DNA from: Siphonodentalium dalli
Taxonomy: Eukaryota; Mollusca; Scaphopoda; Gadilida; Siphonodentaliidae
Direction: 5' to 3'
Length of the DNA stretch: 64,000 bases
Assembly: GCA_032622095.1 (NCBI GenBank)
Contig: CP136066.1
Location: 155,767,152-155,831,151, forward strand
Shown: in pieces, positions 3,798 through 51,431 of the stretch
Layout: each line of letters starts with the position of its first letter
Numbering within the stretch: the first letter of the stretch is position 1
The notes under the pieces: model-generated
Databases searched by the model: none
The model's input: only the letters and a program-made list of their open reading frames with translations
What the model was told of the DNA's origin: nothing
Made by a program: the position numbers and the translations under genes

Positions 3798-3799
3798 AC

Positions 3800-8680: not shown

Positions 8681-9182
8681 TTAAAGGTACGGTTGGCCTT
8701 GGCGGTGGGTATCCTGTGAAAATATTTCCACCCGTCAAAAACCGCCACAAACAGAAAGAACAACAAAATGTAGACAGACTTTGTCCGTATACAAATAAGA
8801 AATATCGCATAAACAGTATGTTATTGTCATATATTTGACCATTGTTATGTAAACAACAGCATAAAAAGTTACTTTTCTGGTGTTTGTTTATATTATGATG
8901 GTAAACATAAAGAGCGTTCTTTGTTGATGAATTCTTGATATGGAACGAATAAAGAGCGTTTATGCCATTTGTGTGTGATTAGCCAGCAGCATTGTGCTGT
9001 CTTCTGTAACACAATCAGGCTCTTGCTTAGGTAAAATATAGTAAATCTTTATGATAACATGCTGTTTACGCGATGGTCATGGTATATATGAACGAAAGTG
9101 TATGCGTTTTAATGTTTTTCTGTTTACGGTGATTGGAACAAATATGAATATTTTCGACAACTAAGGCCTCACGTGCCTTTAA
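8681..9182 (+). mobile_element. TTAA-flanked MITE, family M, copy 2
   Basis: Starts TTAAAGGTACGGTTGGCC and ends GGCCTCACGTGCCTTTAA; TTAA lies at both borders. About 500 bp, nearly identical to the copies at 13,231, 33,568 and (inverted) 32,659 and 35,400. Inside are two direct AAAGAGCGTT motifs about 38 bp apart around CCTGATATGG-like text. No coding capacity. Confidence 0.85.
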
Positions 9183-13230: not shown

Positions 13231-13732
13231 TTAAAGGTACGGTTGGCCTTGGTGGTGGGTATCCTGTGAAAATATTTCCACCCGTCAAAAACCGCCATAA
13301 ACAGAAAGAACATCAAAATGTAGACAGACTTTGTCCGTATACAAATAATAAATATCGCATAAACAGTATGTTATTGTCATATGTTGACCATGGTTATGTA
13401 AACAAAAGCATAAAAAAGTTACTTTTCTGGTGTTTGTTTATATTATGATGGTAAACATAAAGAGCGTTCTTTGTTGGTGAATTCCTGATATGGAACTAAT
13501 AAAGAGCGTTTATGCCATTTGTGTGTGATTAGCCAGTAGCATTGTGCTGTCTTCTGTAACACGATCGGTCTCTTGCTTAGGTAAAATATAGTAGGTCTTT
13601 ATGATAACATGCGGTTTACGCGATGGTCATGGTATATATGAACGAAACTGTATGCGTTTTAATGATTTTCTGTTTACGGTGATTGGAACAAATATGAATA
13701 TTTTCGACAACTAAGGCCTCACGTGCCTTTAA
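13231..13732 (+). mobile_element. TTAA-flanked MITE, family M, copy 3
   Basis: TTAAAGGTACGGTTGGCC at the left and GGCCTCACGTGCCTTTAA at the right. Nearly identical to the 8,681 copy. It sits between the ORF1 and endonuclease remnants of one LINE, so it probably inserted into that LINE. Confidence 0.85.
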
Positions 13733-14885
13733 AATTGGGGTATTTAAATCCTACTCAGAAATTTGACATAATATGTTTAAGCGAAACAAAAAACAATTTA
13801 ATTTACATAAATGATGTTGCGGGATTCCCTCCTTTCATTCTGTAGCATGCAAGGAAACAATATTCATTGGGTGGCACTCATGGTCTCTGTATTTTGATTA
13901 AAGATAATTATTCCAAGCATGTCAAGATCATGCAAAGCCCGTCTTTGTAATGGGAAAATTATCTCTGGATTCATATTGACAAAAATGAATTTGGTTTTGA
14001 TTTAGTCATTAGGGCTGTTTATTTCCCTTATGAGGTACTGTACATTATGACGATGAAATATCTAACTCCTTTGCAGAAGACATCCTTTCTATGGGGGGGG
14101 GGGCATATATAATTGCTATGCCGAGAATGTCCTTCAATATTATTTCATGGAACGATTGTTTCATATAAACTTATGTCGATATCTTTTATATTTAATTTTC
14201 TTACATTATGACGATGAAATATTTAACTCATTGGCAGAAGACATTCTTTCTATTAAGTGAGTCTGACAGTCACTTATTTTACGGGGACATCAAATGATTT
14301 TGACACATATATTGGAGATTCTTATTTTACAGCTGGCGATGCCAACCATTTCAGTTTATAAAATGCTGAAGGTGGAATGAAGCATACACTGGGTTTCACA
14401 TGGTATTAACACCACGAGAAACAATATGTATAAACATTAACAATAATGGCCGAAAACTGATAAGCTTTTGCAAAGCTCATGAAATATGTATTCTAAATGT
14501 TCGTGTTGGCTCTGATGAAGGAAAAGTGGAATTCATCTGCCAAATCGCTAAATGTTGTAGCTCTATTGATTACATAATTGTTGTGCCTAAATTATTTTCA
14601 TCTATTTGACATTAACATTGATGATTTCGATAAATGACTATCTAATGTTCATACTAGTGTATGTTTAAGAGAACTTGACTCATCTGATAATAGAGCTTGC
14701 AATGTCTCAGGTCCAGATGATTCATATCTGAGAATTCGGTTTATGTAGCTCTGAAGTCTAAATGTCCTGAATTATCTGAAGATTATCAGAGTAATTTTAA
14801 TTATGAAGATATATTCTCGCTGAAATCTGAACTTGAAAATGCAATTACAAAGGATACTATGAACAATCTTACCAGTAAATTAAAA
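13733..14885 (+). pseudogene. LINE ORF2 endonuclease-domain remnant
   Basis: Translated in pieces, the sequence gives FDIICLSETKNN, later GGTHGLCILIKD, then IHIDKNEFGFDLVIRAVYFPYE, then LTPRETICININNNGRKLI with FCKAHEICILNVRVG and later SSIDYIIV. These are the successive blocks of the apurinic-endonuclease domain of LINE ORF2 (Q/D-ICLSET, HGG-I-I, D-IVYIP, R-S-D-N-NG--L--FC, DY). A short segment (CATTATGACGATGAAATAT...) is duplicated at 14,043 and 14,204. Many stops and shifts; the reverse transcriptase is missing. Same strand and order as the ORF1 remnant upstream. Confidence 0.7.
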
Positions 14886-32625: not shown

Positions 32626-32658
32626 CCTTATTGATAATTTTTGCACATTTGTGAACGT

Positions 32659-33164
32659 TTAAAGGCACGTGATGCCTTAGTTGTCGAAAATATTCATATT
32701 TGTTCCAATCACCGTAAACAGAAAATCATTAAAACGCATGTATACAGTTTCGTCCATATATACCATGACCATCGCGTAAACAGCATGCTATCATAAAGAC
32801 CTACTATATTTTACCTAAGCAAGAGCCCGATTGTGTTACAGAAGACAGCACAATGCTACTGGCTAATCACACACAAATGGCATAAACGCTCTTTATTAGT
32901 TCCATATCAGGAATTCACCAACAAAGAACGCTCTTTATGTTTACCATCATCATATAAACAAACACCAGAAAAGTAACTTTTTTATGCTTTTGTTTACATA
33001 ACAATGGTCAACATATGACAATAACATACTGTTTATGCGATATTTCTTATTTGTATACGGACAAAGTCTGTCTACATTTTGATGTTCTTTCTGTTTGTGG
33101 CGGTTTTTGACGGGTGGAAATATTTTCACAGGATACCCACCACCAAGGCCAACCGTACCTTTAA
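32659..33164 (-). mobile_element. TTAA-flanked MITE, family M, copy 4
   Basis: TTAAAGGCACGTGATGCC at the left and GGCCAACCGTACCTTTAA at the right, that is, the inverted orientation of the 8,681 copy. Nearly identical interior. Borders the LINE fragment at 33,165. Confidence 0.85.
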
Positions 33165-33567: not shown

Positions 33568-34067
33568 TTAAAGACACGGTTGACCTTGGCGGTGGGTATC
33601 CTGTGAAAATATCTCCACCCGTCAAAAACCGCCACAAACAGAAAGAACATCAAAATTTAGATAGACTTTGTCCGTATAAATAAGAAATATCGCATAAACA
33701 GTATGTTGTGGTCATATGTTTGACCATTGTTATGTAAACAAAAGCATAAAAAGTTACTTTTCTGGTGTTTGTTTATATTATGATGGTAAACATAAAGAGC
33801 GTTCTTTGTTGGTGAATACCTGATATGGAACTAATAAAGAGCGTTTATGTCATTTGTGTGTGATTAGCCAGTATCATTGTGCTGTCTTCTGTACCACAAT
33901 CAGGCTCTTGCTTGGGTAAAATATAGAAGGTCTTTATGATAACATGCTGTGTACGCGATGGTCATGGTATATATGAACGGAACTGTATGCGTTTTAATGT
34001 TTTTCTGTTTACGGTGATTGGAACAAATATGAATATTTTCGACAATTAAGGCCGCACGTGCCTTTAA
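33568..34067 (+). mobile_element. TTAA-flanked MITE, family M, copy 5
   Basis: TTAAAGACACGGTTGACC at the left and GGCCGCACGTGCCTTTAA at the right. Plus orientation, opposite to copy 4. The two copies bracket 403 bp of LINE. Confidence 0.85.
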
Positions 34068-35254: not shown

Positions 35255-35399
35255 ACGGAGAATGAAATTTGTGAAAAAATTAAATCTTGAATATTGACTA
35301 AACAGTTTGAAAATCTGATAGTCATGGTATTCAAGTTATTGAAAACAGTTTTTCTCTCTCTCATATTTATCATTTTAGTGCTGAAAGCTTATGCCATTG

Positions 35400-35901
35400 T
35401 TAAAGGCACGTGAGGCCTTAGTTGTCGAAAATATTCATATTTGTTCCAATCACCGTAAACAGAAAATCATTAAAACGCATACAGTTTCGTTCATATTTAC
35501 CATGACCATCGCGTAAACAACATGTTATCACAAAGACCTACTATATTTTACCTAAGCAAGAGCCTGATTGTGTTACAGAAGACAGCACAATGCTACTGGC
35601 TAATCACACACAAATGGCATAAACGCTCTTTATTAGTTCCATATCAGGAATTCACCAACAAAGAACGCTCTTTATGTTTACCATCATAATATAAACAAAC
35701 ACCAGAAAAGTAACTTTTTTATGCTTTTGTTTACATAACAATGGTCAACATATGACAATAACATACTGTTTATGCGATATTTCTTATTTGTATACGGAAA
35801 AAGTCTGTCTACATTTTGATGTTCTTTCTGTTTGTGACGGTTTTTGACGGGTGGAAATATTTTCACAGGATACCCACCACCAAGGCCAACCGTACCTTTA
35901 A
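35400..35901 (-). mobile_element. TTAA-flanked MITE, family M, copy 6
   Basis: TTAAAGGCACGTGAGGCC to GGCCAACCGTACCTTTAA. Lies 146 bp inside the left end of the DDE transposon and so inserted after it (or was carried with it). Confidence 0.85.
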
Positions 35902-36096
35902 CACACGTGTGCTACTAAAATATTTGCCAAAAGTGGCTTGTAAGAAATTGAGCAAATAGTAACAATTATTTAATATTGGCCTGTAGTATTTCAGTATTTA
36001 AATAGGTCGATGCACGCTATAACACATCTTGGGTTTATATTTCTGTGACTGATGTCCATTTGGGGAAAAATATTTTTCAGAAATCTACATACTATA

Positions 36097-37279: not shown

Positions 37280-39840
37280 GTTTTTTTGTTTAAAAAAAAA
37301 GGAAAATTGAAATTGGTGTATAATTCCCAATATAAATCTTCATTGTTTGCCTTGGATTACAAAAATGTTTATTTCAATGACTACATAACTACTAATGTAT
37401 CTACTTCGGGTTATTTCAATCATAAGAAACTTATTTTGTGGCAAAAAGAGGTTTTTTTTAACATTTTAAACCATGAAAATTGGAATCACATTCTAGTTCG
37501 AAGATTTCAATGTCTGGTAGGTTGATGTTCAAATCAAACTGTTTTCATAACTGAAACCCAATGTTTATCATATTGAAAATAATATTTAATGTGGAAGAAA
37601 CTCAATTTTTGGGGCAAAAAGTGACCTTTTTAGCATTTGAAACCAGTGAAAAATTAAATTGAAAATTATTTTCATATTTGCGGTGTTTGGTAGGTTGCTA
37701 ATCTGACAGAAATGTTTGCATGAACATTATCCAAGGTGTATACTTTTGAAAATCATATTTAATTTGAAACAGAATTCTATTTTTGGGTAAAAATGCATTT
37801 TTTTTATTTGAAACCAGTGAAAATTGGAATCGGATGCTAATTTCCAATTTGGGGTGTTCATTAGGTTGCTATCCCTAAAAAATTGTTTGCATGAATTAAA
37901 TCCAATATATCTCATATTGAAATTCATACTTACTGTGATAAACACTGTTTTTAGGCAAAAAGTGCCTTTTTTGGCATTTGAAACTAGTGAAAATTGGAAT
38001 CAGATCCTCGTTTCAAGTTCTCAATGTTTAGTGGGCTACTGTCACTCATAATAATTGCATCAATGATATCCAATGTTTCTCATTTTGAAATTATATTTAA
38101 TGTGGAAAAAACTCATTTTTTTGGGGCAAAATGTGCCTTTTTTGCTTTTGAAACCAGTGAAAAATGAAATTTAAACTATTTTCAAATTTGCCGTGTTTGC
38201 TAGGTTGCTAATCTGACAGAAATGTTTGCATGAACATTATCCAAGGTGTATACTTTTGAAAATCATATTTAATTTGAAACAGAATTCTATTTTTGGGTAA
38301 AAATGCATTTTTTTTATTTGAAACCAGTGAAAATTGGAATCGGATGCTAATTTCCAAATTGGTGTGTTCATTAGGTTGCTATCCCTAAAAACTTGTTTGC
38401 ATGAATTAAATCCAATATATCTCATATTGAAATTCATACTTACTGTGATAAACACTGTTTTTAGGCAAAAAGTGCCTTTTTGGCATTTGAAACTAGTGAA
38501 AATTGGAATCAGATCCTCGTTTCAAGTTCTCAATGTTTAGTGGGCTACTGTTCAGTGTTCACTCATAATAATTGCATCAATGATATCCAATGTTTCTCAT
38601 TTTGAAATTATATTTAATGTGGAAGAAACTCAGTTTTTTGGGCAAAATGTGCCTTTTTTGCTTTTGAAACCAGTGAAAAATGAAATTTAAACTATTTTCA
38701 AATTTGCCGTGTTTGGTAGGTTGCTAATCTGACAGAAATGTTTGCATGAACATTATCCAAGGTGTAGACTTTTGAAAATCATATTTAATTTGAAACAGAA
38801 TTCTATTTTTGGGTAAAAATGCATTTTTTTAATTTGAAACTGGTGAAAATTGTAATCGGATGCTAATTTCCAATTTGAGGTGTTCATTAGGTTGCTATCC
38901 CTAAAAACTTGTTTGCATGAATTAAATCCAATATATCTCATATTGAAATTCATACTTACTGTGATAAACACTGTTTTTAGGCAAAAAGTGCCTTTTTTTG
39001 GCATTTGAAACTAGTGAAAATTGGAATCAGATCCTCGTTTCAAGTTCTCAATGTTTAGTGGGCTACTGTTCACTCATAATAATTGCATCAATGATATCCA
39101 ATGTTTCTCATTTTGAAATTATATTTAATGTGGAAGAAACTCAGTTTTTTGGGCAAAATGGGCCTTTTTTGAATTTGAAACCAGTGAAAAATTAAATTTA
39201 AACTATTTTCAATTTGCCGTGTTTGGTAGGTTGCTAATCTGATCGAAATGTGTGCATGAGCAATATCAAAGTTGTATACTATTGAAAATCATATTTACTG
39301 TGAAACAGAGCTCTAATTTTGGGCACAAACTGTATTTTTGGTATTTGTAACTGGTGAAAATTGGAATCTGATGCTAATTTCCAATTTGGGGTGTTCATTA
39401 GGTCGGTATCCCCATAAACTTGTTTGCATGAATTAAATCCAATATATCTCATTTTGAAATTCATACTTACTGTGATAAACACTGTTTTAGGCAAAAAGTT
39501 ACTTGTTTGGCATTTGACTCCAGAGAAAATTGGAATAAGATACTCGTTTCAAGTTTTCAATGTTTATTTGGTTAATTACTGTTCACTCATAATGATTGTA
39601 TCAATTTCAATGATATCCATTGTTTCTCATTTTGAAAATTATATTTAATGTGGAAGAAAGTCAGTTTGTTTGGGTAAAATGTGCCTCTTTTGCATTTGAA
39701 ACCAGTGAAAAATGCAATTGAAACCTATTTTAAAATTTGCGGTGTTTGGTGGCAATAATTACTCAGCCGATTGAAATGTTTTCATAAACAATATCCAATG
39801 TGGATAATATTGAAGATCATACTGGTATTTACTGGTACTC
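37280..39840 (+). repeat. Higher-order tandem array upstream of the transposase
   Basis: Built of ~170-bp monomers marked by TTTGAAACCAGTGAAAA(T)T and a (C)ATATTTAATG/CATACTTACTG-type segment. Three monomers make a ~510-bp higher-order unit. The landmark GCATGAACATTATCCAAGG or its variant recurs near 37,719, 38,229, 38,746 and 39,257, spacing 510-517 bp. Copies in the middle are nearly identical and outer ones more diverged, the usual pattern of an array expanded by unequal exchange. Open frames of 60-80 codons inside are repeat-driven. Confidence 0.85.
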
Positions 39841-39891
39841 TTAAGCAATTTAATGTTAGAACTGTGTTTAATAAAATCTTATTTTCTAGCT

Positions 39892-40937
39892 ATGGTGTTG
39901 ACTGCTGCGGAGAGACAAGGCAGACGCAGGGAAAAGCTCAAACAGGACCCTGAAGCTTATGCATCATATAAGGAAAGAAACACAGCTCAACAAAATAAAA
40001 GTAGATTGAAGAAAAAAGTTGAACTGTCCGATTTGCACCCATCAGTCCAATATGAGGAACAAAAGAGATTAAATTTGATGAACAAAAATAGAGTAGCAAA
40101 CTGCAGAGAAAACCAAAGAAAAGAGCAGGCTGCTTCAACGCCGGCATTCAGGAGTGCCCAGGCTTTAGGTCGTGCGATATCACGTGTTAAGAGGGTGCTC
40201 CCCATTACTCCAAGAAGGAGCTGGGCAATTTGTCAATCAATTGCTAGGAAGTTATCAAATTCTTCAGAAAGTAGTGACAACACACCAAACCAAAGGCCAT
40301 GTGCAAATTCCCTAAATGAACAAACTGCAACACTAGTGGCAAATTTTTATTCACGTGACGATATAAGTCGTCAAGCTCCAGGGATAAAGGATATCGTGAA
40401 TATTCGAAATCATGATGGAACAAAATACAAAGTTCAAACGCGTCATCTTACTTCATCAGTAGTTGAAGTGTACGCACTATTCAAAGAAGAGCATCCATCA
40501 GAAAAGATAGGGAAAAGCAAGTTCGCAGAATTAAGACCTAAGAATGTTTTACTCAGTAGCAAGCTTCCCAAGAATGTTTGTTTATGTAAATATCATGAGA
40601 ATTTTATCATGGCTGTGAATTCATTACACAATGTTCACAAGGAATTCCCAAAATATGGCCATGAAATGCCAGAAATGTTCTTGTGCAAGGATGCAACGGA
40701 GGCGTGTTGGTTCAATGAGTGTAGTGAGTGTGGCAATGGGGAATTGTTTGTGAAAAAGTTTTCCATACCAGCAAATGATGTGGTCCCTGTAAGCTGGTGT
40801 GTTTGGAGAAATAACGATGACCAATTATGCAAAGCTTTAGAGGAAGGTACATCATCACAACTCTTCAATCATATTCTTGAGTTACTTCCAAATTTCATAA
40901 CTCACTGTCATATCAAACGTGAACAAGCTCGTACAGA
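39892..40937 (+). CDS. DDE-type transposase, N-terminal part
   Basis: Starts at the ATG after an acceptor-like TTTTCTAG; the longer upstream start at 39,853 is less likely. Residues 1-75 are highly basic (MVLTAAERQGRRREKLKQDP start, several Lys/Arg/Gln clusters), as in DNA-binding ends of transposases. A second basic region (SRVKRVLPITPRRSW) follows near residue 110, then a conserved-looking region with CLCKYHENFIMAVNSL, a CWFNECSECGNGELF cysteine cluster and FITHCHIKREQART. This last part normally runs straight into the catalytic domain, which here lies in another frame. The open frame itself continues to 41,121, but its final ~60 codons are out of register with the downstream homology. Likely one gene with the next entry, broken by a single-base frameshift near 40,930-40,980. 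Confidence 0.7.
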
Positions 40938-41921
40938 ATGCAAAGGGAATCTGTGGGTAGTGAAACATATAATCCCGCCATGGCTTTGCTACAAATTGAT
41001 TATGCAGAAAATTATTCATGTTCTCAACAGGATGAGATTCAAAGTGCTCATTGGCAGCATAACCAAGTCACCCTGTTCACTGCAGCTTTGTGGTATGACG
41101 GCCAGTTGCATCCGAAAGTAATCACATCAGATGATCACAGTCACTCAAAGGATACCCTAGTTGCCTACATTGACATGCTCATGGAACATTTGCCTCAAAC
41201 TGTGAAATACATTTCTATCTGGTCCGACGGACCTTCCTCACAGTTCAAGAACAGATTTGTGTTTGCTTCAATACCCATGCTTGAAAAGAAACACAATGTG
41301 AAAATTCAGTGGAATTTCTTTGCCACGTCTCATGGGAAAGGGCCGGTGGATGGCATTGGTGGCTCTGTCAAGAGGCAGGTATGGACTTGTGTGAAGACAC
41401 GGAAGGCAGTGGTAAAGGACGCAGCTTCGTTTACTGTTGCTGCTGGACTCTCTTCAAAAGTTCATTGTATGGCAATGACCTCTGCGGAAATAAAGCAGCG
41501 AAATGAGTCCCTAGAGCTCGAAACGATTTTCAATAATGCACCGTCAATAAAGGGTATAAAGTCTATCCATTTTGTGAAGTTTGAAGCTGGCATGATATCT
41601 TGCAGAATGACGAAACAATCACCGGATTGTAGCTCAACTGCAGAAGTTTTGCATTCACAACCAGAAAACACTTCTCTAAGCATTGGTGAATGGTGTGCTG
41701 TGAGATATGATGATGAAGTCTTTCCTGGTGAAGTAAAACGCATCTTTGGGGAAACATATGAAGTTTCTGTTATGGTCAGTGCTGGGAAGTTCTGGAAGTG
41801 GCCTTCACATGAAGACACACTTGTATATCAACGGGAAGATATATGCAAGAAACTGAATGGCCCAGTTGTTGTAAATTCACGTGGGAATTTTGATTTCCCA
41901 GATTTCCCAGCAAATAGTTAA
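40938..41921 (+). CDS. DDE-type transposase, catalytic and C-terminal part
   Basis: 327 codons in the frame after the shift. Near residue 17 ALLQIDYAENYS supplies a first acidic residue on a beta strand. Near residue 95 SDGPSSQFKNRFVF supplies a second. HGKGPVDGIGGSVKR follows near residue 130-145 with another Asp. The spacing and glycine-rich contexts fit an RNase H-like DDE/D fold (inference). The C-terminus has an SH3/Tudor-like module: GEWCAVRYDDEVFPGEV then FWKWPSHEDTLVYQ. I recognise the family from many invertebrate and fish genomes as a multi-copy transposon protein, but cannot give its official name. The gene sits between two clusters of TGTAATGTCAGTCACG repeats, which supports it being the element's own transposase. 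Confidence 0.75.
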   Translation: MQRESVGSETYNPAMALLQIDYAENYSCSQQDEIQSAHWQHNQVTLFTAALWYDGQLHPKVITSDDHSHSKDTLVAYIDMLMEHLPQTVKYISIWSDGPSSQFKNRFVFASIPMLEKKHNVKIQWNFFATSHGKGPVDGIGGSVKRQVWTCVKTRKAVVKDAASFTVAAGLSSKVHCMAMTSAEIKQRNESLELETIFNNAPSIKGIKSIHFVKFEAGMISCRMTKQSPDCSSTAEVLHSQPENTSLSIGEWCAVRYDDEVFPGEVKRIFGETYEVSVMVSAGKFWKWPSHEDTLVYQREDICKKLNGPVVVNSRGNFDFPDFPANS

Positions 41922-42310: not shown

Positions 42311-42316
42311 GAAATA
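42311..42316. repeat. 6-bp target-site duplication GAAATA, left
   Basis: GAAATA abuts the left end of the palindrome; identical bases at 51,426-51,431 abut the right end. Confidence 0.85.
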
Positions 42317-42342
42317 AGAAGAATGGGGGGCTCGTTACCTTC

Positions 42343-42690
42343 ACATCTAAAAATAGAATCTTTGGGTCTAAAATTGGTTGTGGGTGTCTCGTTCGCCTCA
42401 CATCTCAAAATAGAATCTTTGGGTCTAAAATTGTTTGAGGGTAAAATTGTGTGAGGGTAAATTGTTTGAGGGTAAAATTGGTTGTACTAAAATATTCTCA
42501 AAACTTCCAAAATATCAAAACCCAAAACTTCCAAAATTTCAAAACCCAAAACTTATTTTTCCAAAACAAAAAATTTCAAAACCCTAAAATTATTTTTTTC
42601 CAAAAACAAAAAATTCAAAACCCCAAAATTATTTTTCCAAAAGAAAAAATTTCAAAACCCCCAAAATTATTTCTCCAAAAAAAAAGTTTA
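42343..42690 (+). repeat. Left arm outer motif block A and CAAAAYTTC-rich tract
   Basis: Two copies of AATAGAATCTTTGGGTCTAA, GTTTGAGGGTAAAATTG repeats, then GGTTGTACTAAAATATTC and a purine-strand tract of CAAAA(C/T)TTCCAAAAT and CCAAAATTATTT units. The same block A plus tract recurs, in the same orientation, at the inner end of this arm (46,613-46,790), so each arm is bracketed by direct repeats. Confidence 0.75.
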
Positions 42691-43683
42691 AATAAAAAAT
42701 TTATAACGAGTTTTCGGTTTCTGATAATCTCGATATTAAAATGTCGAATGTTTATAAAATTATTTGTGTGTAATATCTTTCGTTATTTTTTTGTTCAACC
42801 AATGTTTCAATGTATTTATTAATCGATGATTAGAAATATCTTTATACCAATTATATGTGTATGGACAGTCGCTGTAATGTTGGACATTGTGACCATCGGT
42901 ATGAATGCATACATTCCAGTGTTTATCGGACGCAGTTCATACATATAATTGTCATACCTGAAAATAGACACCATTACTCTTACATAAATAATAAAGAGCG
43001 TGTATTCTTAACTTCTCTATCCCAGATGAAGTTATTGAGTATATGACAGGTGTGTATTATCGTGAATTATTGGAAGTATGGAGATGTACTATCTTGAATC
43101 ACGAGCGGACAACCCCCAGAATGAATTGTCATATTCGATGTACACGTAATCACACACGACATTGTGGGTAACAATGTATGTGTCACACCTTGCTTTACCA
43201 AATGAATTCTATTATATCCCGTTCACAGTTATATGCTATTCAGAAAACATATCGATTTAATGTCTGAGCAGAATTAGTTGTTTAACGGGTTAGTATCAAT
43301 TAAGGTTGATAAACTGTGTCATTGTTAGCATTAACACGATAATTAGTTATCCAAAACATGCATACATAATACGTCCAGGTCGTGAGACACTCAATAATAG
43401 AAATTGCTTCGGTGTCATTGTTATAACAACATTACGTAATAACCACTTATCATTCCATTCACATTTACGCTCATTTTGTATACCAAAACTCCAGTTAGCA
43501 CCGATGAGGCAACATTATATCACTGCTCATTGATCTCACGTAAATAATACTCTTAGTTGTTCCAATAAAATAGTTATCAAATTCGATCACCAATAGATTT
43601 TACTTTCAAAAATTTCCAAAACTTCAAAAATTTCAATACAATGAAGATGACGAAAAGTTACCTATAATTCTGCTGTGGTTAAG

Positions 43684-43685
43684 CC

Positions 43686-43718
<33 letters not shown>

Positions 43719-43719
43719 G
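43684..43719 (+). repeat. (CAA)n microsatellite, left arm
   Basis: CAACAACAA run between two ATTCTGCTGTGGTTAAG motifs. The mirror in the right arm (50,009-50,036) is shorter by a few units. Confidence 0.8.
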
Positions 43720-43954
43720 CCACCAAGCGACATAACATCCTGCTTTGATGATCCAATGGCCAATGTCCATGAAGATTTTATTTCCGATGCAAGTCATATT
43801 TCCGACTAACTCCTGAAAAGTTACCTATAATTCTGCTGTGGTTAAGCAGTCCATTATTTAGGGCATAACTGTATGTAGGCCTACCAGTGGATGAATAGTC
43901 TGCCGGAGAAGTACTGTGTAGACAGGTCTTGTAGGTAAGAGAGTCAGACGAGAA

Positions 43955-44173
43955 GTGAAGGCTCGGCTATTAAAACATAGTAATGCGATAGCGAACATCA
44001 AACGAGTCTGCGCACGCATATCTGTCAAAGGATACAATAGCAGTCATTGGTCAATTTATCCCCGGTGTCAGCTCAGTACCCAATCGGGACGAAGCCGGAG
44101 GTCAACTCATTTTTTTTTTGCTCATTATAGTACGTCACTTGGACATTTTATCAGTTTATCACGTGATCACTAA
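43955..44173 (+). other. 72-codon open frame in the left arm, doubtful
   Basis: Identical in the right arm (49,554-49,772, minus strand). It reads toward the centre, opposite to the three clear genes. No recognisable motif. Conservation between arms is expected from arm identity and does not show coding. Confidence 0.2.
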
Positions 44174-44509
44174 ATGTGGCAATCGGGTATCCACCGATGC
44201 CTGCAATTTATTATTTATAATAATTGGACTCATTGATCTCACGTAAATAATACTCTTATTTGTTCCAATAAAATAGTTATCAAATTCGATCACCAATAGA
44301 TTTGACTGTGGAATATAATGACCTTTAACTTATTTATCGATCTATGTTAGAACATGGTCTTAACAAAAAACTTGACCATAACAAAAATTACCTTACATTT
44401 ATGCATGAATCTAATTAGACCATGCGTAAATATTGTCAGCTTATCGTCTGATGAGCAAATCCGATGTTTATCAAAAATAGTACAACTTCCAGTTGGTAAT
44501 TACTCTTAC

Positions 44510-45093
44510 GAATGAAGAGCGTTGAACATATACGAAATTACTACACGAATGAACTGAAATTTATATTTTCACATCTTACCAACAACAGATACAGACATAG
44601 TCATAGTGTTATACTATCTTACATGTACCCATGCTATGACATCATTCGAAGGGGCAATACACTCAAGGAGTTAAAGTGACACGAAACAAGGGACGTGATG
44701 TAATATTGGTGTTTGAATCTTAAAGGAACACAAGACACTCTAAAGGGACACTCATTATGAATGAATGTTAACAATACAAGCGCACGAATGAAGAGCGTTG
44801 AACATATACTAAATTACTACACGAATGAATTGAACCTTGAAATTTATATTTCACATCTTACCAACAACAGCTACAGGCATTATCATAGGGTTATACTGTC
44901 TTGCATGTACACACGCTATGACATCATTAAAGGCGGACAATCCACTCACGGTGTGACAACAGATACAGACATAGGCATAGTGTTATACAGTCTTCTATGT
45001 ACCAATGCTATGACATAATTAAAGGGGGATAATACACGCACGGTGTGGAATGTTAAAGTGACACGCGGTAAGGGACGTGATGTAATATTGGTG
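44510..45093. repeat. Tandem repeats in the left arm
   Basis: CGAATGAAGAGCGTTGAAC, ACTACACGAATGAA, CATCTTACCAACAAC and GCTATGACAT recur two to four times with ~100-270 bp spacing. Mirrored at 48,630-49,220. Confidence 0.7.
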
Positions 45094-45150
45094 AAACCCC
45101 CTCCCCACTTATAGATATATAACGAAGACGAGAATAACATGTTGATGAAG

Positions 45151-45156
45151 TTTATT
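45151..45156 (-). promoter_or_regulatory. Polyadenylation signal AATAAA, left arm gene block
   Basis: AATAAA on the minus strand 6 bases past the stop of the zinc-finger gene, mirrored at 48,567-48,572. Fits a single 3' end for the whole three-gene block. Confidence 0.6.
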
Positions 45157-45161
45157 GAAAT

Positions 45162-45731
45162 TTAATCATTGTCTGAATCTTCGACCGTTAGATTTACTTC
45201 TAAGAGTTTCTTGAATTTTCTCATCGCTTCATCTGCAGCCCATTCATTATTATATCCGTGTTTGGTCAGTTTGACCATTTTCTTCATGATCATGTTATGT
45301 ATGCGTGATGTTTTCAATCGATACTGGTATTCTATAAATCGTCTATAACTTTTGAGAAACAGAGCAAACTCTGTGTTGATGGTATCCTCTTTTCCCGACA
45401 TGCTCTCATCTCCCGAAATGCTCTCTTCTTCTTTCACATCATTGGTGACGCGTTTCATCATACTTTTGAATGTGTCCATCTCGTTGACACATCGCGCAGC
45501 TTTCTTAAGACCGAATACCGTTCTACTACCGACGACATTACCATCTTCTGAATCTGATAGCGTTCCCCGTTCATCTTCATCTGAATCTAGAACCGCTTCG
45601 TCAGATTCATCGGTATCTTCTCCGAAGAGAGTTGGTTTTGTCTCGGACATAACTCCGTGTTTAATCTGTTTATGTCTTTGTAGATTGTAGTTCGTCGATA
45701 AAATAATGCCACATAAATCACACCCGTGCAT
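45162..45731 (-). CDS. Left-arm gene 3: C2H2 zinc-finger protein, 189 aa
   Basis: Begins with one C2H2 finger within the first 26 residues (C-x2-C-x12-H-x4-H; CDLCG...LQRHKQIKH). The middle (about 35-65) is acidic Asp/Glu/Ser-rich, then two further acidic Ser/Glu patches (about 100-118), then a helical basic segment (about 120-170) and an acidic end (VEDSDND). The start overlaps the end of gene 2 by 14 bases. A single N-terminal finger with acidic spacer suggests a nucleic-acid-binding or regulatory protein of the element; I do not recognise a named family. The right-arm copy differs at two residues (Asp/Val and Phe/Leu). Confidence 0.65.
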   Translation of the reverse strand: MHGCDLCGIILSTNYNLQRHKQIKHGVMSETKPTLFGEDTDESDEAVLDSDEDERGTLSDSEDGNVVGSRTVFGLKKAARCVNEMDTFKSMMKRVTNDVKEEESISGDESMSGKEDTINTEFALFLKSYRRFIEYQYRLKTSRIHNMIMKKMVKLTKHGYNNEWAADEAMRKFKKLLEVNLTVEDSDND

Positions 45732-45975
45732 TATCGCGAATTATTGGAAGAACCATCACTCTTATAAGTAGCGATAAAAAGAGAGAATAAGGTGTGGTAT
45801 ACAACCGTCGCGCTAAGAGTACGTTCGTCCCGGGGCTAGGGTATAGATATTTGACCGCCGGTGATTCAATTAATGCCAATTTATCAGTATGGTACTCTAT
45901 GTATTCATTCATGATTTGGCTAATCGTATGACACTGGTCTTTACATTTTCTTCTTATTATTAGACAAACCTCCAA
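45718..45975 (-). CDS. Left-arm gene 2: small hydrophobic-ended protein
   Basis: The open frame is 85 codons if started at the first ATG, which overlaps gene 1 by 35 bases. A more natural start is the internal MNEYIEYHTDKLALIE (about residue 22), giving ~64 residues and a short spacer after gene 1. It has a YLYPSPGTNVLLARRL block and one hydrophobic helix (YSLFLSLLIRVMVLPII) near the end, so it could be membrane-associated. No family recognised. Identical in both arms. Confidence 0.5.
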   Translation of the reverse strand: MEVCLIIRRKCKDQCHTISQIMNEYIEYHTDKLALIESPAVKYLYPSPGTNVLLARRLYTTPYSLFLSLLIRVMVLPIIRDNARV

Positions 45976-46243
45976 CAGACACTCTCTTGTTGGTTTGTTT
46001 GGACGCTTTACGTGTGTTTGTCAACTTATTTGCTGCAACTTCGGCCTTAGCCATTTCAATCGCTTGAGCGATGGGTGTCACCACGTTAATATGTGGTTTT
46101 AGAACGTCTTCTTCACTATCACTATTTTTAGTTCTGTCAATAAAGTATCGACATTGATTATCTGGTATTAACTTCCCATCAACCATATCTCTGAAATGTT
46201 TTCTCCACATTTCAAGATCTGCTGGAATATACGGGATCGACAT
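45941..46243 (-). CDS. Left-arm gene 1: 100-aa basic-ended protein, Polinton-like
   Basis: Starts MSIPYIPADLEMWRKHFRDM and continues GKLIP, has a middle alanine-rich helix (IAQAIEMAKAEVAANKL) and a strongly basic tail (RKASKQTNKR ... NKKKM). The short IP-Y-P-D---W--HF--M--GK opening and Lys-rich tail recall small virion-type proteins of Polinton/adintovirus-like elements; this is from memory and needs a search. First gene of the outward-reading block, 570 bp from the palindrome centre. The right-arm copy differs at Cys/Gly 31 and Arg/Lys 37. Confidence 0.6.
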   Translation of the reverse strand: MSIPYIPADLEMWRKHFRDMVDGKLIPDNQCRYFIDRTKNSDSEEDVLKPHINVVTPIAQAIEMAKAEVAANKLTNTRKASKQTNKRVSVGGLSNNKKKM

Positions 46244-46454
46244 GTTTCTTCAAAATGTACAAGTCACTCTTTTTTCTGCATTTTATTTTAGAAAGTTTAT
46301 CGCCTCTTATAAAAATCGATTATTGGCCATGAATGCCAAATGCACCATGATAGTTATCGATGTCAATAATGCGTTTCGTTGAGATCTTGATTGAGTATGC
46401 ACCAATCAATTAACAATGACACAGAATATCACACAAAGTATATTCAAGGGGGTG

Positions 46455-46545
46455 AGAAAAATGAGCAAATGAGCAAATAAATGAGCAAATGAGCAAAAAA
46501 ATGAGCAAATGAGCAAATGAGCAAATAAATGAGCAAGCAGGATGT
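46455..46545 (+). repeat. GAGCAAAT repeat, left of centre
   Basis: Seven to nine units of ATGAGCAAAT(AA/GAGCAAA) type. The mirror at 47,050-47,265 is more than twice as long, the main length difference between the arms. Confidence 0.85.
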
Positions 46546-46612
46546 TATGTCGCTTGGTGTTGTTGTAGCGGAGGTAGCATCACCAAATTACCCTCGGGGG
46601 ACCTCATTCTGC

Positions 46613-46790
46613 CATCTAAAAATAGAATCTTTGGGTCTAAAATTGGTTGTACTAAAATATTCCCAAAAACCCAAAATTTCAAAAATTTCAAAAAACTTCC
46701 AAAATTTCAAAAATTTCAAAAATTTCAAAAATTTCAAAAATTTCAAAAAAATTCAAAAATTTCAAAAACTTCAAAAATAAGACCCCGGCG
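46613..46790 (+). repeat. Left arm inner block A and TTTCAAAAA tract
   Basis: AATAGAATCTTTGGGTCTAA and GGTTGTACTAAAATATTC, then many TTTCAAAAA units running up to the GC-rich centre. Direct-repeat partner of 42,343-42,690. Confidence 0.8.
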
Positions 46791-46842
46791 GCGGCGGCGG
46801 CACCGCCGCCGTAAAATATCGCAATGCCGCCGCCGCCGGGGT
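46785..46842. other. GC-rich palindrome centre with (CGG)n arms
   Basis: CCCCGGCGGCGG... (five GGC) and ...GCCGCCGCCGGGG (four GCC) surround a ~20-base spacer that includes TAAAATATCGCAA and a further CCGCCGCCG. It is the most GC-rich spot in the window. Both sides are followed by the TTTCAAAAA tract. A tight hairpin would form here on single strands. Confidence 0.8.
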
Positions 46843-46974
46843 CTTATTTTTGAAATTTTGGAAGTTTTTTGAAATTTTTGAAATTTTTGAAGTTTTTGAA
46901 ATTTTTGAAGTTTTGGGTTTTTGGGAATATTTTAGTACAACCAATTTTAGACCCAAAGATTCTATTTTTAGATG
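46843..46974 (-). repeat. Right arm inner block A and tract
   Basis: Inverse of 46,613-46,790, with fewer TTTTTGAAA units. Confidence 0.8.
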
Positions 46975-47049
46975 GCAGAATGAGGTCCCCCGAGGGTAAT
47001 TTGGTGATGCTATCTCCGCTACAACAACACCAAGCGACATAACATCCTG

Positions 47050-47265
47050 CTTGCTCATTTATTTGCTCATTTGCTCATTTATTTGCTCATTTATTTGCTC
47101 ATTTGCTCATTTTTTTGCTCATTTGATCATTTGCTCATTTATTTGCTTGCTCATTTTTTTGCTCATTTGCTCATTTGCTCATTTATTTGCTCATTTGCTC
47201 ATTTTTTTGCTCATTTGCTCATTTTTTTGCTCATTTGCTCATTTATTTGCTCATTTGCTCATTTT
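47050..47265 (-). repeat. TTTGCTCATT repeat, right of centre
   Basis: About twenty units of TTTGCTCA with ATT or TTT spacers. The two open frames over it encode only low-complexity Leu/Ile/Cys/Phe/His repeats and are not genes. Confidence 0.9.
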
Positions 47266-47479
47266 TCTCACCCCCTTGAATATACTTTGTGTGATATTCT
47301 GTGTCATTGTTAATTGATTGGTGCATACTCAATCAAGATCTCAACGAAACGCATTATTGACATCGATAACTATCATGGTGCATTTGGCATTCATGGCCAA
47401 TAATCGATTTTTATAAGAGGCGATAAACTTTCTAAAATAAAATGCAGAAAAAAGAGTGACTTGTACATTTTGAAGAAAC

Positions 47480-47782
47480 ATGTCGATCCCGTATATTCCA
47501 GCAGATCTTGAAATGTGGAGAAAACATTTCAGAGATATGGTTGATGGGAAGTTAATACCAGATAATCAGGGTCGATACTTTATTGACAAAACTAAAAATA
47601 GTGATAGTGAAGAAGACGTTCTAAAACCACATATTAACGTGGTGACACCCATCGCTCAAGCGATTGAAATGGCTAAGGCCGAAGTTGCAGCAAATAAGTT
47701 GACAAACACACGTAAAGCGTCCAAACAAACCAACAAGAGAGTGTCTGTTGGAGGTTTGTCTAATAATAAGAAGAAAATGTAA
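47480..47782 (+). CDS. Right-arm gene 1: 100-aa basic-ended protein, Polinton-like
   Basis: Mirror of 45,941-46,243 with Gly 31 and Lys 37. Same IPYIPADLEMW start, alanine-rich middle helix and Lys-rich end. Reads away from the centre. An A-rich leader precedes the ATG; no canonical TATA box is clear. Confidence 0.6.
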   Translation: MSIPYIPADLEMWRKHFRDMVDGKLIPDNQGRYFIDKTKNSDSEEDVLKPHINVVTPIAQAIEMAKAEVAANKLTNTRKASKQTNKRVSVGGLSNNKKKM

Positions 47783-48005
47783 AGACCAGTGTCATACGAT
47801 TAGCCAAATCATGAATGAATACATAGAGTACCATACTGATAAATTGGCATTAATTGAATCACCGGCGGTCAAATATCTATACCCTAGCCCCGGGACGAAC
47901 GTACTCTTAGCGCGACGGTTGTATACCACACCTTATTCTCTCTTTTTATCGCTACTTATAAGAGTGATGGTTCTTCCAATAATTCGCGATAATGCACGGG
48001 TGTGA
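47748..48005 (+). CDS. Right-arm gene 2: small hydrophobic-ended protein
   Basis: Mirror of 45,718-45,975 with an identical translation. Overlaps gene 1 by 35 bases at the first ATG; the internal ATG at 47,811 removes the overlap. Its last codons overlap the gene 3 start by 14 bases. Confidence 0.5.
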   Translation: MEVCLIIRRKCKDQCHTISQIMNEYIEYHTDKLALIESPAVKYLYPSPGTNVLLARRLYTTPYSLFLSLLIRVMVLPIIRDNARV

Positions 48006-48561
48006 TTTATGTGGCATTATTTTATCGACGAACTACAATCTACAAAGACATAAACAGATTAAACACGGAGTTATGTCCGAGACAAAACCAACTCTCTTCG
48101 GAGAAGATACCGATGAATCTGACGAAGCGGTTCTAGATTCAGATGAAGATGAACGGGGAACGCTATCAGATTCAGAAGATGGTAATGTCGTCGGTAGTAG
48201 AACGGTATTCGGTCTTAAGAAAGCTGCGCGATGTGTCAACGAGATGGTCACATTCAAAAGTATGATGAAACGCGTCACCAATGATGTGAAAGAAGAAGAG
48301 AGCATTTCGGGAGATGAGAGCATGTCGGGAAAAGAGGATACCATCAACACAGAGTTTGCTCTGTTTCTCAAAAGTTATAGACGATTAATAGAATACCAGT
48401 ATCGATTGAAAACATCACGCATACATAACATGATCATGAAGAAAATGGTCAAACTGACCAAACACGGATATAATAATGAATGGGCTGCAGATGAAGCGAT
48501 GAGAAAATTCAAGAAACTCTTAGAAGTAAATCTAACGGTCGAAGATTCAGACAATGATTAA
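47992..48561 (+). CDS. Right-arm gene 3: C2H2 zinc-finger protein, 189 aa
   Basis: Mirror of 45,162-45,731, differing at two residues (Val for Asp in the block before TFKSMMK; Leu for Phe in YRRLIEYQ). The zinc ligands and acidic regions are intact, so both copies could be expressed. Confidence 0.65.
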   Translation: MHGCDLCGIILSTNYNLQRHKQIKHGVMSETKPTLFGEDTDESDEAVLDSDEDERGTLSDSEDGNVVGSRTVFGLKKAARCVNEMVTFKSMMKRVTNDVKEEESISGDESMSGKEDTINTEFALFLKSYRRLIEYQYRLKTSRIHNMIMKKMVKLTKHGYNNEWAADEAMRKFKKLLEVNLTVEDSDND

Positions 48562-48566
48562 ATTTC

Positions 48567-48572
48567 AATAAA
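48567..48572 (+). promoter_or_regulatory. Polyadenylation signal AATAAA, right arm gene block
   Basis: Six bases past the stop of gene 3. Mirror of 45,151-45,156. Confidence 0.6.
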
Positions 48573-48629
48573 CTTCATCAACATGTTATTCTCGTCTTCG
48601 TTATATATCTATAAGTGGGGAGGGGGTTT

Positions 48630-49220
48630 CACCAATATTACATCACGTCCCTTACCGCGTGTCACTTTAACATTCCACACCGTGCGTGTATTATTATCCC
48701 CCTTTAATTATGTCATAGCATTGGTACATAGAAGACTGTATAACACTATGCCTATGTCTGTATCTGTTGTCACACCGTGAGTGGATTGTCCGCCTTTAAT
48801 GATGTCATAGCGTGTGTACATGCAAGACAGTATAACCCTATGATAATGACTGTAGCTGTTGTTGGTAAGATGTGAAATATAAATTTCAAGGTTCAATTCA
48901 TTCGTGTAGTAATTTTGTATATGTTCAACGCTCTTCATTCGTGCGCTTGTATTGTTAACATTCATTCATAATGAGTGTCCCTTTAGAGTGTCTTGTGTTC
49001 CTTTAAGATTCAAACACCAATATTACATCACGTCCCTTGTTTCGTGTCACTTTAACTCCTTGAGTGTATTGCCCCTTCGAATGATGTCATAGCATGGGTA
49101 CATGTAAGATAGTATAACACTATGACTATGTCTGTATCTGTTGTTGGTAAGATGTGAAAATATAAAATTTCAGTTCATTCGTGTAGTAATTTCGTATATG
49201 TTCAACGCTCTTCATTCGTA
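48630..49220. repeat. Tandem repeats in the right arm
   Basis: Inverse of 44,510-45,093, with one three-base insertion in the GTATTATTATCCCCC region that the left arm lacks. Confidence 0.7.
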
Positions 49221-50008
49221 AGAGTAATTACCAACTGGAAGTTGTACTATTTTTGATAAACATCGGATTTGCTCATCAGACGATAAGCTGACAATATTTA
49301 CGCATGGTCTAATTAGATTCATGCATAAATGTAAGGTAATTTTTGTTATGGTCAAGTTTTTTGTTAAGACCATGTTCTAACATAGATCGATAAATAAGTT
49401 AAAGGTCATTATATTCCACAGTCAAATCTATTGGTGATCGAATTTGATAACTATTTTATTGGAACAACTAAGAGTATTATTTACGTGAGATCAATGAGTC
49501 CAATTATTATAAATAATAAATTGCAGGCATCGGTGGATACCCGATTGCCACATTTAGTGATCACGTGATAAACTGATAAAATGTCCAAGTGACGTACTAT
49601 AATGAGCAAAAAAAAAATGAGTTGACCTCCGGCTTCGTCCCGATTGGGTACTGAGCTGACACCGGGGATAAATTGACCAATGACTGCTATTGTATCCTTT
49701 GACAGATATGCGTGCGCAGACTCGTTTGATGTTCGCTATCGCATTACTATGTTTTAATAGCCGAGCCTTCACTTCTCGTCTGACTCTCTTACCTACAAGA
49801 CCTGTCTACACAGTACTTCTCCGGCAGACTATTCATCCACTGGTAGGCCTACATACAGTTATGCCCTAAATAATGAACTGCTTAACCACAGCAGAATTAT
49901 AGGTAACTTTTCAGGAGTTAGTCGGAAATATGACTTGCATCGGAAATAAAATCTTCATGGACATTGGCCATTGGATCATCAAAGCAGGATGTTATGTCGC
50001 TTGGTGGC

Positions 50009-50036
50009 TGTTGTTGTTGTTGTTGTTGTTGTTGTG
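50009..50036 (-). repeat. (GTT)n microsatellite, right arm
   Basis: Mirror of the left-arm (CAA)n, with fewer units. Confidence 0.8.
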
Positions 50037-51049
50037 GCTTAACCACAGCAGAATTATAGGTAACTTTTCGTCATCTTCATTGTATTGAAATTTTTGAAGT
50101 TTTGGAAATTTTTGAAAGTAAAATCTATTGGTGATCGAATTTGATAACTATTTTATTGGAACTAAGAGTATTATTTACGTGAGATCAATGAGCAGTGATA
50201 TAATGTTGCCTCATCGGTGCTAACTGGAGTTTTGGTATACAAAATGAGCGTAAGTGTGAATGGAATGATAAGTGGTTATTACGTAATGTTGTTATAACAA
50301 TGACACCGAAGCAATTTCTATTATTGAGTGTCTCACGACCTGGACGTATTATGTATGCATGTTTTGGATAACTAATTATCGTGTTAATGCTAACAATGAC
50401 ACAGTTTATCAACCTTAATTGATACTAACCCGTTAAACAACTAATTCTGCTCAGACATTAAATCGATATGTTTTCTGAATAGCATATAACTGTGAACGGG
50501 ATATAATAGAATTCATTTGGTAAAGCAAGGTGTGACACATACATTGTTACCCACAATGTCGTGTGTGATTACGTGTACATCGAATATGACAATTCATTCT
50601 GGGGGTTGTCCGCTCGTGATTCAAGATAGTACATCTCCATACTTCCAATAATTCACGATAATACACACCTGTCATATACTCAATAACTTCATCTGGGATA
50701 GAGAAGTTAAGAATACACGCTCTTTATTATTTATGTAAGAGTAATGGTGTCTATTTTCAGGTATGACAATTATATGTATGAACTGCGTCCGATAAACACT
50801 GGAATGTATGCATTCATACCGATGGTCACAATGTCCAACATTACAGCGACTGTCCATACACATATAATTGGTATAAAGATATTTCTAATCATCGATTAAT
50901 AAATACATTGAAACATTGGTTGAACAAAAAAATAACGAAAGATATTACACACAAATAATTTTATAAACATTCGACATTTTAATATCGAGATTATCAGAAA
51001 CCGAAAACTCGTTATAAATTTTTTATTTAAACTTTTTTTTTGGAGAAAT

Positions 51050-51400
51050 AATTTTGGGGGTTTTGAAATTTTTTCTTTTGGAAAAATAATTTTGGGGTTT
51101 TGAATTTTTTGTTTTTGGAAAAAAATAATTTTAGGGTTTTGAAATTTTTTGTTTTGGAAAAATAAGTTTTGGGTTTTGAAATTTTGGAAGTTTTGGGTTT
51201 TGAAATTTTGGAAGTTTTGGGTTTTGATATTTTGGAAGTTTTGAGAATATTTTAGTACAACCAATTTTACCCTCAAACAATTTACCCTCAAACAATTTTA
51301 CCCTCAAACAATTTTAGACCCAAAGATTCTATTTTGAGATGTGAGGCGAACGAGACACCCACAACCAATTTTAGACCCAAAGATTCTATTTTTAGATGTG
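51050..51400 (-). repeat. Right arm outer block A and tract
   Basis: Inverse of 42,343-42,690, with one extra GTTTTGAAATTTTGGAA-type unit that lengthens an incidental open frame here by 8 codons. Confidence 0.8.
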
Positions 51401-51425
51401 AAGGTAACGAGCCCCCCATTCTTCT

Positions 51426-51431
51426 GAAATA
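51426..51431. repeat. 6-bp target-site duplication GAAATA, right
   Basis: Partner of 42,311-42,316. Confidence 0.85.

Follow-up and report, generated by a model that had tools for sequence, protein, structure and literature searches.

A high-copy family of palindromic elements in the Siphonodentalium dalli genome, probably satellites of Polintons

The window analysed here is a 64-kb stretch of Siphonodentalium dalli DNA (C6:155767152-155831151), taken from a searched genome of 2.23 Gb in 9 contigs. At 42317-51425 it contains a single palindrome of 9,109 bp, edged by the 6-bp duplication GAAATA. In a self-comparison the arms 42317-46517 and 47206-51425 are mutually inverse with 98.9% identity over 4,229 columns, 11 mismatches and 5 gap openings; the inner parts could be aligned too, and the palindrome thus extends to an apex near 46812, with length differences mostly in simple repeats. 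With up to 3 mismatches allowed, the terminal sequence AGAAGAATGGGGGGCTCG is found at exactly two places in the window, at 42317 on the plus strand and at 51408-51425 on the minus strand, where 0.02 would be expected. Outside GAAATA the left and right flanks are not inverse of each other, indicating that the palindrome was finished prior to insertion. A preliminary description of this DNA had claimed a 9.1-kb near-perfect palindrome inserted as a unit, with an 18-bp end that starts the left arm and whose inverse ends the right arm, and both claims agree with these comparisons. The features are given below, where helper denotes the full-length Polintons of the same genome, C4 is the contig carrying one of them, and ORF stands for open reading frame.

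42311-42316, no strand: left target-site duplication GAAATA (window comparison)
42317-46811, no strand: left arm of the palindrome (self-comparison and inner alignment)
42317-43535, plus: left Polinton-type terminal repeat region; ends in (AGA)2 AT..., with subrepeats and A-rich tracts
43651-43782, plus: ATPase-gene remnant, left arm, Q-rich linker and first codons (tblastn 5e-8)
45162-45731, minus: zinc-finger ORF, left arm, 189 aa, N-terminal C2H2-like (zf-C2H2 E 0.003, below Pfam cutoff)
45853-45912, minus: major capsid protein (MCP) gene, left arm, first ~20 codons, truncated (tblastn 1e-6)
45941-46243, minus: PW-like ORF, left arm, 100 aa (77% to helper PW over 103 aa)
46218-46316, minus: minor capsid protein (mCP) gene, left arm, 3' end, truncated (tblastn 1e-6)
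46459-46536, no strand: (AAATGAGC)n array left of centre
46613-46650, plus: subterminal repeat copy beside the apex, left
46777-46846, no strand: GGC-rich apex hairpin; looks like a collapsed form of the T-shaped apex of other copies
46812-51425, no strand: right arm of the palindrome (self-comparison and inner alignment)
46937-46974, minus: subterminal repeat copy beside the apex, right
47051-47264, no strand: (AAATGAGC)n array right of centre, longer than the left one
47407-47505, plus: mCP gene, right arm, 3' end, truncated
47480-47782, plus: PW-like ORF, right arm, 100 aa (79% to helper PW over 103 aa, 2e-51)
47811-47870, plus: MCP gene, right arm, first ~20 codons, truncated
47992-48561, plus: zinc-finger ORF, right arm, 189 aa
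49945-50001, minus: ATPase-gene remnant, right arm (gene carried by other palindromes)
50183-51425, minus: right Polinton-type terminal repeat region (by comparison with the C4 Polinton end)
51426-51431, no strand: right target-site duplication GAAATA (window comparison)

From apex to end the window arm holds the 3' end of the mCP gene, PW, about 20 codons of MCP, the zinc-finger ORF, the ATPase remnant and a terminal region of ~1.2 kb, and judged by this order of gene pieces it is one end of a Polinton-like genome, repeated, with a large deletion. The window element gave no match to PolB (the query being its C-terminal half) or to integrase, and is therefore classed as Polinton-derived and non-autonomous, not as an autonomous Polinton. 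The 22 other copies that were fetched gave no PolB match with the same query, a chromodomain remnant as the only trace of integrase in three, and an ATPase remnant in one. The chromodomain remnant lies in both arms (at about 2240-2420 and mirrored) of L010, L018 and L026, and the first two of these share a long common branch in the arm tree described below. The two window proteins have no homologue at E <= 1e-3 among 5.8 billion public proteins, no match to them, to the exact 18-bp end or to a neighbouring 332-aa ORF was found in viral contigs, and a Pfam scan of the remaining long ORFs of the window gave nothing above the cutoffs. A 38-bp subterminal repeat also adjoins the apex, oriented like the nearer terminus, and the centre resembles a nested mini-palindrome of the same make. 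That the palindrome consists of two complete monomers joined tail to tail was considered and dropped, since the terminal-like motif by the apex is oriented as the nearer and not the opposite terminus.

The exact 18-bp end has 8 matches genome-wide, which constitute four facing pairs with the window included. The copies on C1 (9,749 bp) and C2 (8,510 bp) are palindromes with the target-site duplications (TSDs) GTAGGG and GGCATG, and the copy on C4 is a non-palindromic element of 19.4 kb with the TSD CACGTG. In the C4 copy, whose genes were assessed in pieces read apart, DNA_pol_B_2 (7e-21, 5e-31) and an integrase with rve (3e-15) and chromodomain (9e-8) are above the Pfam cutoffs, a Pox_A32-like ATPase (1.2e-3) and an adenain-like protease (6e-4) are below them, and the ORFs at the mCP, PW and MCP positions have no Pfam match, the capsid names being given from position alone. 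Judged by the C4 copy and by the integrase matches in 15-18-kb pairs described below, the 15-19-kb partners have the gene set of a Polinton, with PolB, integrase, ATPase, protease and capsid genes, of which ATPase and protease stay below the cutoffs. The palindromes have the 5'-AG and CT-3' termini of the class, with AGAAGA... ends and a terminal region collinear with Polinton ends of the same genome: the left region (42317-43535) follows the C4 end (94%) and, at 81-83%, also a 16-kb partner's terminal repeat of ~1.1 kb, and the right one is 99.8% identical to the C4 end in the last 466 bp and 94.6% in the next 0.7 kb. The two terminal repeats of that 16-kb partner are 97.5% identical across 1,115 columns. 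In the C4 copy, the terminal repeat on the right is split by an insert of ~3.1 kb (L013:5860-8985) that carries a 601-aa tyrosine-recombinase-like ORF (Phage_integrase 2e-11, DUF3504 4e-8), and whose size would explain the excess of 19.4 kb over the ~16.2-kb class.

The C4 copy matches the order int-mCP-PW-MCP-protease of vertebrate Mavericks, which make 6-bp TSDs, end in (AG)3 or (AGT)2, and whose terminal repeats measure 46-1,447 bp (PMC8097293). The palindromes resemble Polintons/Mavericks in the 6-bp TSD, the AG...CT ends with a doubled trinucleotide, the long terminal repeats, and the capsid-module fragments ordered mCP-PW-MCP as in the partners read. They differ in being wholly mirror-image, with one end present twice and a central hairpin, and the 9,109 bp of the window copy fall outside the 12.7-24.6 kb given for intact vertebrate elements (PMC8097293).

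A genome search with the two arm proteins, in which the best 150 of 955 and the best 150 of 3,336 candidates were scored, placed many matches in outward-facing minus/plus pairs a few kb apart. Twenty loci picked as PW gene pairs, together with the window, C1 and C2 copies, gave 23 palindromic loci. Both ends lie inside the fetched stretch in 19 of them, and all 19, which span 8.2-10.0 kb, have perfect 6-bp TSDs that are mutually different; L014, L015, L026 and L027 lack one or both ends in the stretch and were excluded from this count, and L031, which was counted with the 19, is uneven in its arms. The genome matches a less strict form of the end, AGAAGAATRGNNGNCTCGTT, 643 times forward and 631 times in reverse, and the reversed-pattern control matched in neither direction. 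Among the 100 places listed out of 1,274 (C1, first 160 Mb) there are 45 facing pairs of less than 25 kb, of which 29 measure 7-11.2 kb, 10 measure 15-18 kb, 5 are shorter and one is 13.5 kb. If the share of 29/45 is extrapolated to all 1,274 ends, about 350-400 palindromes would result, and mirror-image elements probably number several hundred in the genome.

For a sample blind to gene content, the middle 1 kb was read in the first 20 C1 pairs of <=9.8 kb not previously fetched. Fifteen are palindromic through the centre, three (L041, L045, L051) have inverted arms around a spacer, and two (L040, L052) have neither. The flanks of 8 palindrome-size pairs from this sample and of two 16-kb pairs show a perfect TSD in 9 of 10 cases; the tenth, C1:16701727-16710205 (L058/L059), has one extra TCT, corresponding to an extra terminal AGA unit, and then the TSD, the shift being read by eye. 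An extra unit of this kind is what we would expect if protein-primed initiation slipped on the doubled triplet at the terminus. Shorter elements of 3.1-6.0 kb with the same ends occur at C1:126246494-126249615, 46816177-46820900, 48408574-48414619 and 128007321-128012996, and at least four plus-strand end signals ~5.4 kb apart (C1:159746518, 159751852, 159757262 and 159762679) look like a head-to-tail tandem array of ends.

Sorted by eye on the arm sequence next to the centre, 16 of these 20 pairs form three groups: A, which is window-like (L034, L035, L037, L044, L048), B (L036, L039, L042, L047, L050, L053) and C (L038, L043, L045, L046, L049). Automatic clustering linked 15 of the 20 via pieces that they have in common, which blurs the borders between the groups. 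The ATPase was read in one B copy (L053, piece L077), in two C copies (L038, piece L078, and L045) and in L041; all four have a packaging ATPase behind a Q-rich linker, of which the window keeps a remnant, and in the C copies the ATPase also has an N-terminal C2H2-like finger. The frame is open for 333 codons in L077 and 307 in L041, with a Pox_A32 match of 3e-6, above the cutoff, and 32-37% identity to the ATPase of the partner. No Rep/NS1 nickase match was found by Pfam among the ORFs scanned, the group B and C arms being read only partly. In copies chosen for good protein matches and intact frames, pN/pS is 0.43-0.55 for PW and about 0.9-1.2 for the zinc finger, and selection is not demonstrated for the latter. 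The zinc-finger and ATPase genes might play some role in the palindromes. Among the shorter elements, L041 resembles an asymmetric snapback carrying one ATPase gene. In L052, of 5.7 kb, parts of both gene types are adjacent in opposite orientation and the centre is not palindromic; it may resemble a two-gene progenitor whose halves were doubled separately. Beyond the preliminary description, the palindromes are a high-copy family, have been a separate lineage for some time, and vary in gene content.

The two arms of one copy are very much alike. In a tree with both arms of 18 complete copies (3,148 of 5,978 columns kept, L031 omitted for its uneven arms) the arms of each copy are sisters in 18/18 cases, with a mean distance of 0.27% within a copy (0.13-0.45%) and 5.2% between copies (smallest 1.1%), and none of 2,000 random arm pairings was equally close. 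Variants present in both arms of every carrier number 719 (511 shared by several copies and 208 private to one copy), to be set beside 132 confined to one arm and 35 split variants, 34 of them split in some copies and one in all. At the level of DNA comparison the sisterhood of the arms shows that they were made alike before insertion in the copies sampled, and the existence of one-arm variants indicates that they diverge once inserted. Simple copying of both arms is disfavoured, because differences between the arms would then be inherited, and mostly they are not. In a 1.2-kb gene segment from 23 copies the mean distance is 0.21% within a copy and 0.97% between copies. The ends behave similarly, with the same terminal variant on both sides in 44 of the 45 pairs, all sizes included, where 10% would be expected. 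Such matching agrees with a model in which displaced single strands anneal through their inverse ends, a Polinton along its terminal repeats and a palindrome along its entire length.

The window apex is a shortened form without side arms, and its flank recurs in facing pairs elsewhere in the genome. The apex motif GCAGTAAAATACYGCAATGCC has 324 + 309 = 633 genome matches, with none for the control in either direction; the listing comprises 100 of them. In the part of C1 below 159.7 Mb, end pairs make up 0.29% of the sequence and hold 38 of the 51 listed motifs. Most of these have a relative position of 0.47-0.54 within the pair, three pairs deviate with values of about 0.40, 0.60 and 0.73, and the 10 listed 15-18-kb pairs contain no motif. 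Among the listed places there are 24 innermost facing motif pairs, of which 20 are asymmetric at the Y position (12 T/C, 8 C/T) and 4 are C/C. In the fetched stretches a motif pair is present in 13/43, eight of them asymmetric and five symmetric. The inner loop is alike across the groups, and 7 of 8 asymmetric apices that were folded give a T, with an A.C mismatch in the stem (G.T on the other strand) and two side arms. Homogenisation thus affects the arms, whereas the small apex often passes on its asymmetry, in either orientation, much like a hairpin telomere.

Matches to the C4 integrase, taken as the best 107 of 3,598 candidates, have 98-100% identity and are stop-free in 102 cases; such a match lies inside 8 of the 10 listed 15-18-kb pairs and in 0/35 of the other listed pairs, and one match on the listed part of C1 sits outside every listed pair. 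Named relatives of this integrase, among the best 120 of 398, are few, namely bivalve proteins (Mercenaria, Ruditapes) and a Solemya symbiont record. The C4 end and the right arm of the window share 465 of 466 terminal bases, the left arm being 24 bp shorter there, while the end of the 16-kb partner reaches 80.6% over 324 columns and the PW genes of palindromes and partners have 83-85% DNA identity (~16% diverged), indicating that ends have been exchanged between palindromes and Polintons. The PW proteins of the C4 copy and the 16-kb partner differ by eye at a few residues only, yet palindrome PW is as distant from the partners as just given, and for that reason the palindromes look like an old side lineage and not like fresh deletions.

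We give a probability of roughly three in four to the reading that the window element is a high-copy non-autonomous Polinton-derived palindrome, a satellite, which is copied via a self-complementary hairpin and integrated by helper Polintons. Each copy would insert as a whole palindrome, with ends and a 6-bp TSD as in the 15-19-kb Polintons of the same genome, and these full-length elements would provide integrase and protein-primed polymerase in trans. We infer that the palindrome relies on a helper for replication because PolB and integrase were not found in the palindromes. Between insertions it should exist as a single strand folded into a hairpin of ~4.5 kb, whose open end would be the Polinton end and whose turn would be the central T-shaped hairpin. 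Mismatch repair acting on the hairpin, or copy-back synthesis past the apex, might make the arms identical, after which the duplex palindrome would be remade and integrated. The origin was probably like that of a snapback defective genome, in which the polymerase reversed at a hairpin and one Polinton end was copied twice. The preliminary description had assigned the element to the Polinton class, proposed a hairpin-like or dimeric form that had lost its core genes and still transposed, and suggested looking for further copies with the same end and different TSDs and for a full Polinton with these ends. All of this is in line with the results: the right arm's last 466 bp differ from the end of the gene-bearing 19.4-kb C4 element at 1 position, the 19 clean and different 6-bp TSDs go together with the missing PolB and integrase, the three other facing pairs supply the copies and the Polinton, and arm homogenisation and a shared hairpin apex favour the hairpin.

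Several observations weigh against this reading. The replication intermediate, the dependence on a helper and transposition itself are all deduced from sequence. The copies in the arm tree were selected for good PW matches; in four arm blocks no other arm is nearer than the mate for 34, 26, 31 and 36 of 36 arms, and in the 1.2-kb segment the mate is strictly nearest in 15/23 copies, tied in 4, and farther than an arm of another copy in 4 (L015, L016, L028, L029). Gene conversion after insertion could also keep arms alike. At the apex, 13 of the 51 listed motifs fall in none of the listed pairs and the exact motif is missing from many palindrome-size pairs, no motif pair is present in 30/43 loci including the window, asymmetry is not universal (20/24 in one count, 8/13 in the other), and the folding covered the 8 asymmetric apices and not the 5 symmetric ones. 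Finally, PW and the ends of the palindromes are 16-20% diverged from the sampled 16-kb partner, which is therefore not the direct parent.

A bolder reading is that the palindromes are self-sustaining hairpin-genome satellites, with a parvovirus-like plan derived independently from a Polinton and the T apex as replication element, perhaps within a segmented helper-satellite virus system of the germ line; we regard it as a tentative possibility well below even chances. In such a system, equally tentatively, the segments would carry either PW and the zinc finger or the zinc finger fused to the packaging ATPase, and the zinc finger-ATPase could, with the same reserve, steer helper capsids to satellite DNA.

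Less probable, though not negligible, is a foldback-type DNA transposon, in which the Polinton integrase cuts and pastes a duplex palindrome and chromosomal gene conversion maintains the likeness of the arms. Conversion between inverted repeats is well known, the long inverted arms and the tandem subrepeats at the ends are foldback-like, and the 4 of 23 copies whose nearer arm in the 1.2-kb segment lies in another copy would suit it. The whole arms are sisters in all 18 complete copies, at 0.13-0.45%, and the 132 one-arm variants represent divergence after insertion, not conversion. Matching during replication is favoured over conversion because the ends match (44/45 pairs) also in the 15-18-kb partners, where they are far apart. 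The foldback elements FB, TU and Galileo share long inverted arms with internal repeats; they belong to other superfamilies with other TSD lengths, and those of FB type have a TSD of 9 bp, unlike the 6 bp of the palindromes. We know of no foldback arms that constitute a viral genome end with capsid-gene fragments.

It is somewhat more doubtful still that the palindromes with different genes are co-inherited parts of one replicating, multipartite virus-like system and not parasites. Palindromes with PW and zinc finger and those with zinc finger-ATPase have common ends and apex, and the ATPase frame, open in two copies over the 333 and 307 codons mentioned above, passes the Pox_A32 cutoff. Against this, no polymerase or integrase occurs in any palindrome among those read, and selection on the genes is undemonstrated at the pN/pS values of 0.9-1.2 (zinc finger) and 0.43-0.55 (PW) from an intact-frame sample.

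An inverted duplication of a normal insertion, made by the host after integration, would likewise result in two arms; it would have copied flank too, whereas the 19 complete copies and 8 palindrome-size gene-blind pairs (one with the 3 extra bases) have their direct TSDs around the entire palindrome, making this origin very improbable. Palindromic chimeras from library preparation are a known long-read artefact, to which we give practically no credence here, as chimeras would run into the host flanks and not halt at TSDs, and the 19 independent loci have exact element borders, different TSDs, private substitutions in the arms, and apex and end signals that are common genome-wide. Both were rejected on the borders and TSDs at the 19 loci, the gene-blind TSDs and the private arm variants.

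The terminal hairpins of parvoviruses and adeno-associated virus (AAV) are T-shaped, with two side arms, a stem mismatch and two orientations. The predicted folds of 7 of the 8 asymmetric apices resemble them in the T shape with side arms, which the apex of the window lacks; the apex differs in being central in an integrated palindrome, and no Rep-like gene was found in what was read. Miniature inverted-repeat transposable elements are non-coding and under about 0.8 kb, unlike the 9.1-kb window element with two ORFs per arm. Snapback genomes of AAV are self-complementary with one end folded on itself, occur in symmetric and asymmetric forms and need helper functions (PMC8235507). The palindrome is likewise a self-complementary genome with one end duplicated; the AAV forms are virion DNAs replicated with Rep (PMC8235507), whereas the palindromes have Polinton ends and form a lineage that has inserted, with TSDs, many times over. 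Bidnaviruses join parvovirus-like and Polinton-like features in one genome and are thus another meeting of the two; they differ in terminal repeats that form no hairpins, in encoding PolB, and in having separate virus segments (PMC4061559). The palindrome family combines known kinds, a non-autonomous Polinton and a snapback genome, and what sets it apart is that an entire lineage, present in many copies, has the same hairpin turn. Searches of the open-access literature showed no account of palindromic Polintons among their listed results, with subscription papers, preprints and Repbase outside their scope.

Polintons are regarded as viruses that integrate and replicate by protein priming, and to our knowledge this replication has hardly been observed. 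A family with arm matching before insertion, exchange of ends between helper and satellite, and a shared hairpin is a natural record of the Polinton replication cycle, which sequence data can thereby put to the test. The family would also represent a snapback genome that has become a successful transposon in the germ line, and one route by which parvovirus-like hairpin genomes could arise from Polinton-like ones.

Immediately left of the element, at 39814-41921, two overlapping long frames of 435 and 332 aa have no Pfam family above the cutoff and lie beside a tandem array of ~514-bp units at 37434-39821; this may be another transposon. A repeat of ~500 bp is present in six copies in both orientations, at 3268-3800, 8681-9184, 13231-13735, 32658-33164, 33568-34067 and 35396-35905 of the window, five of which are about 93-97% alike.

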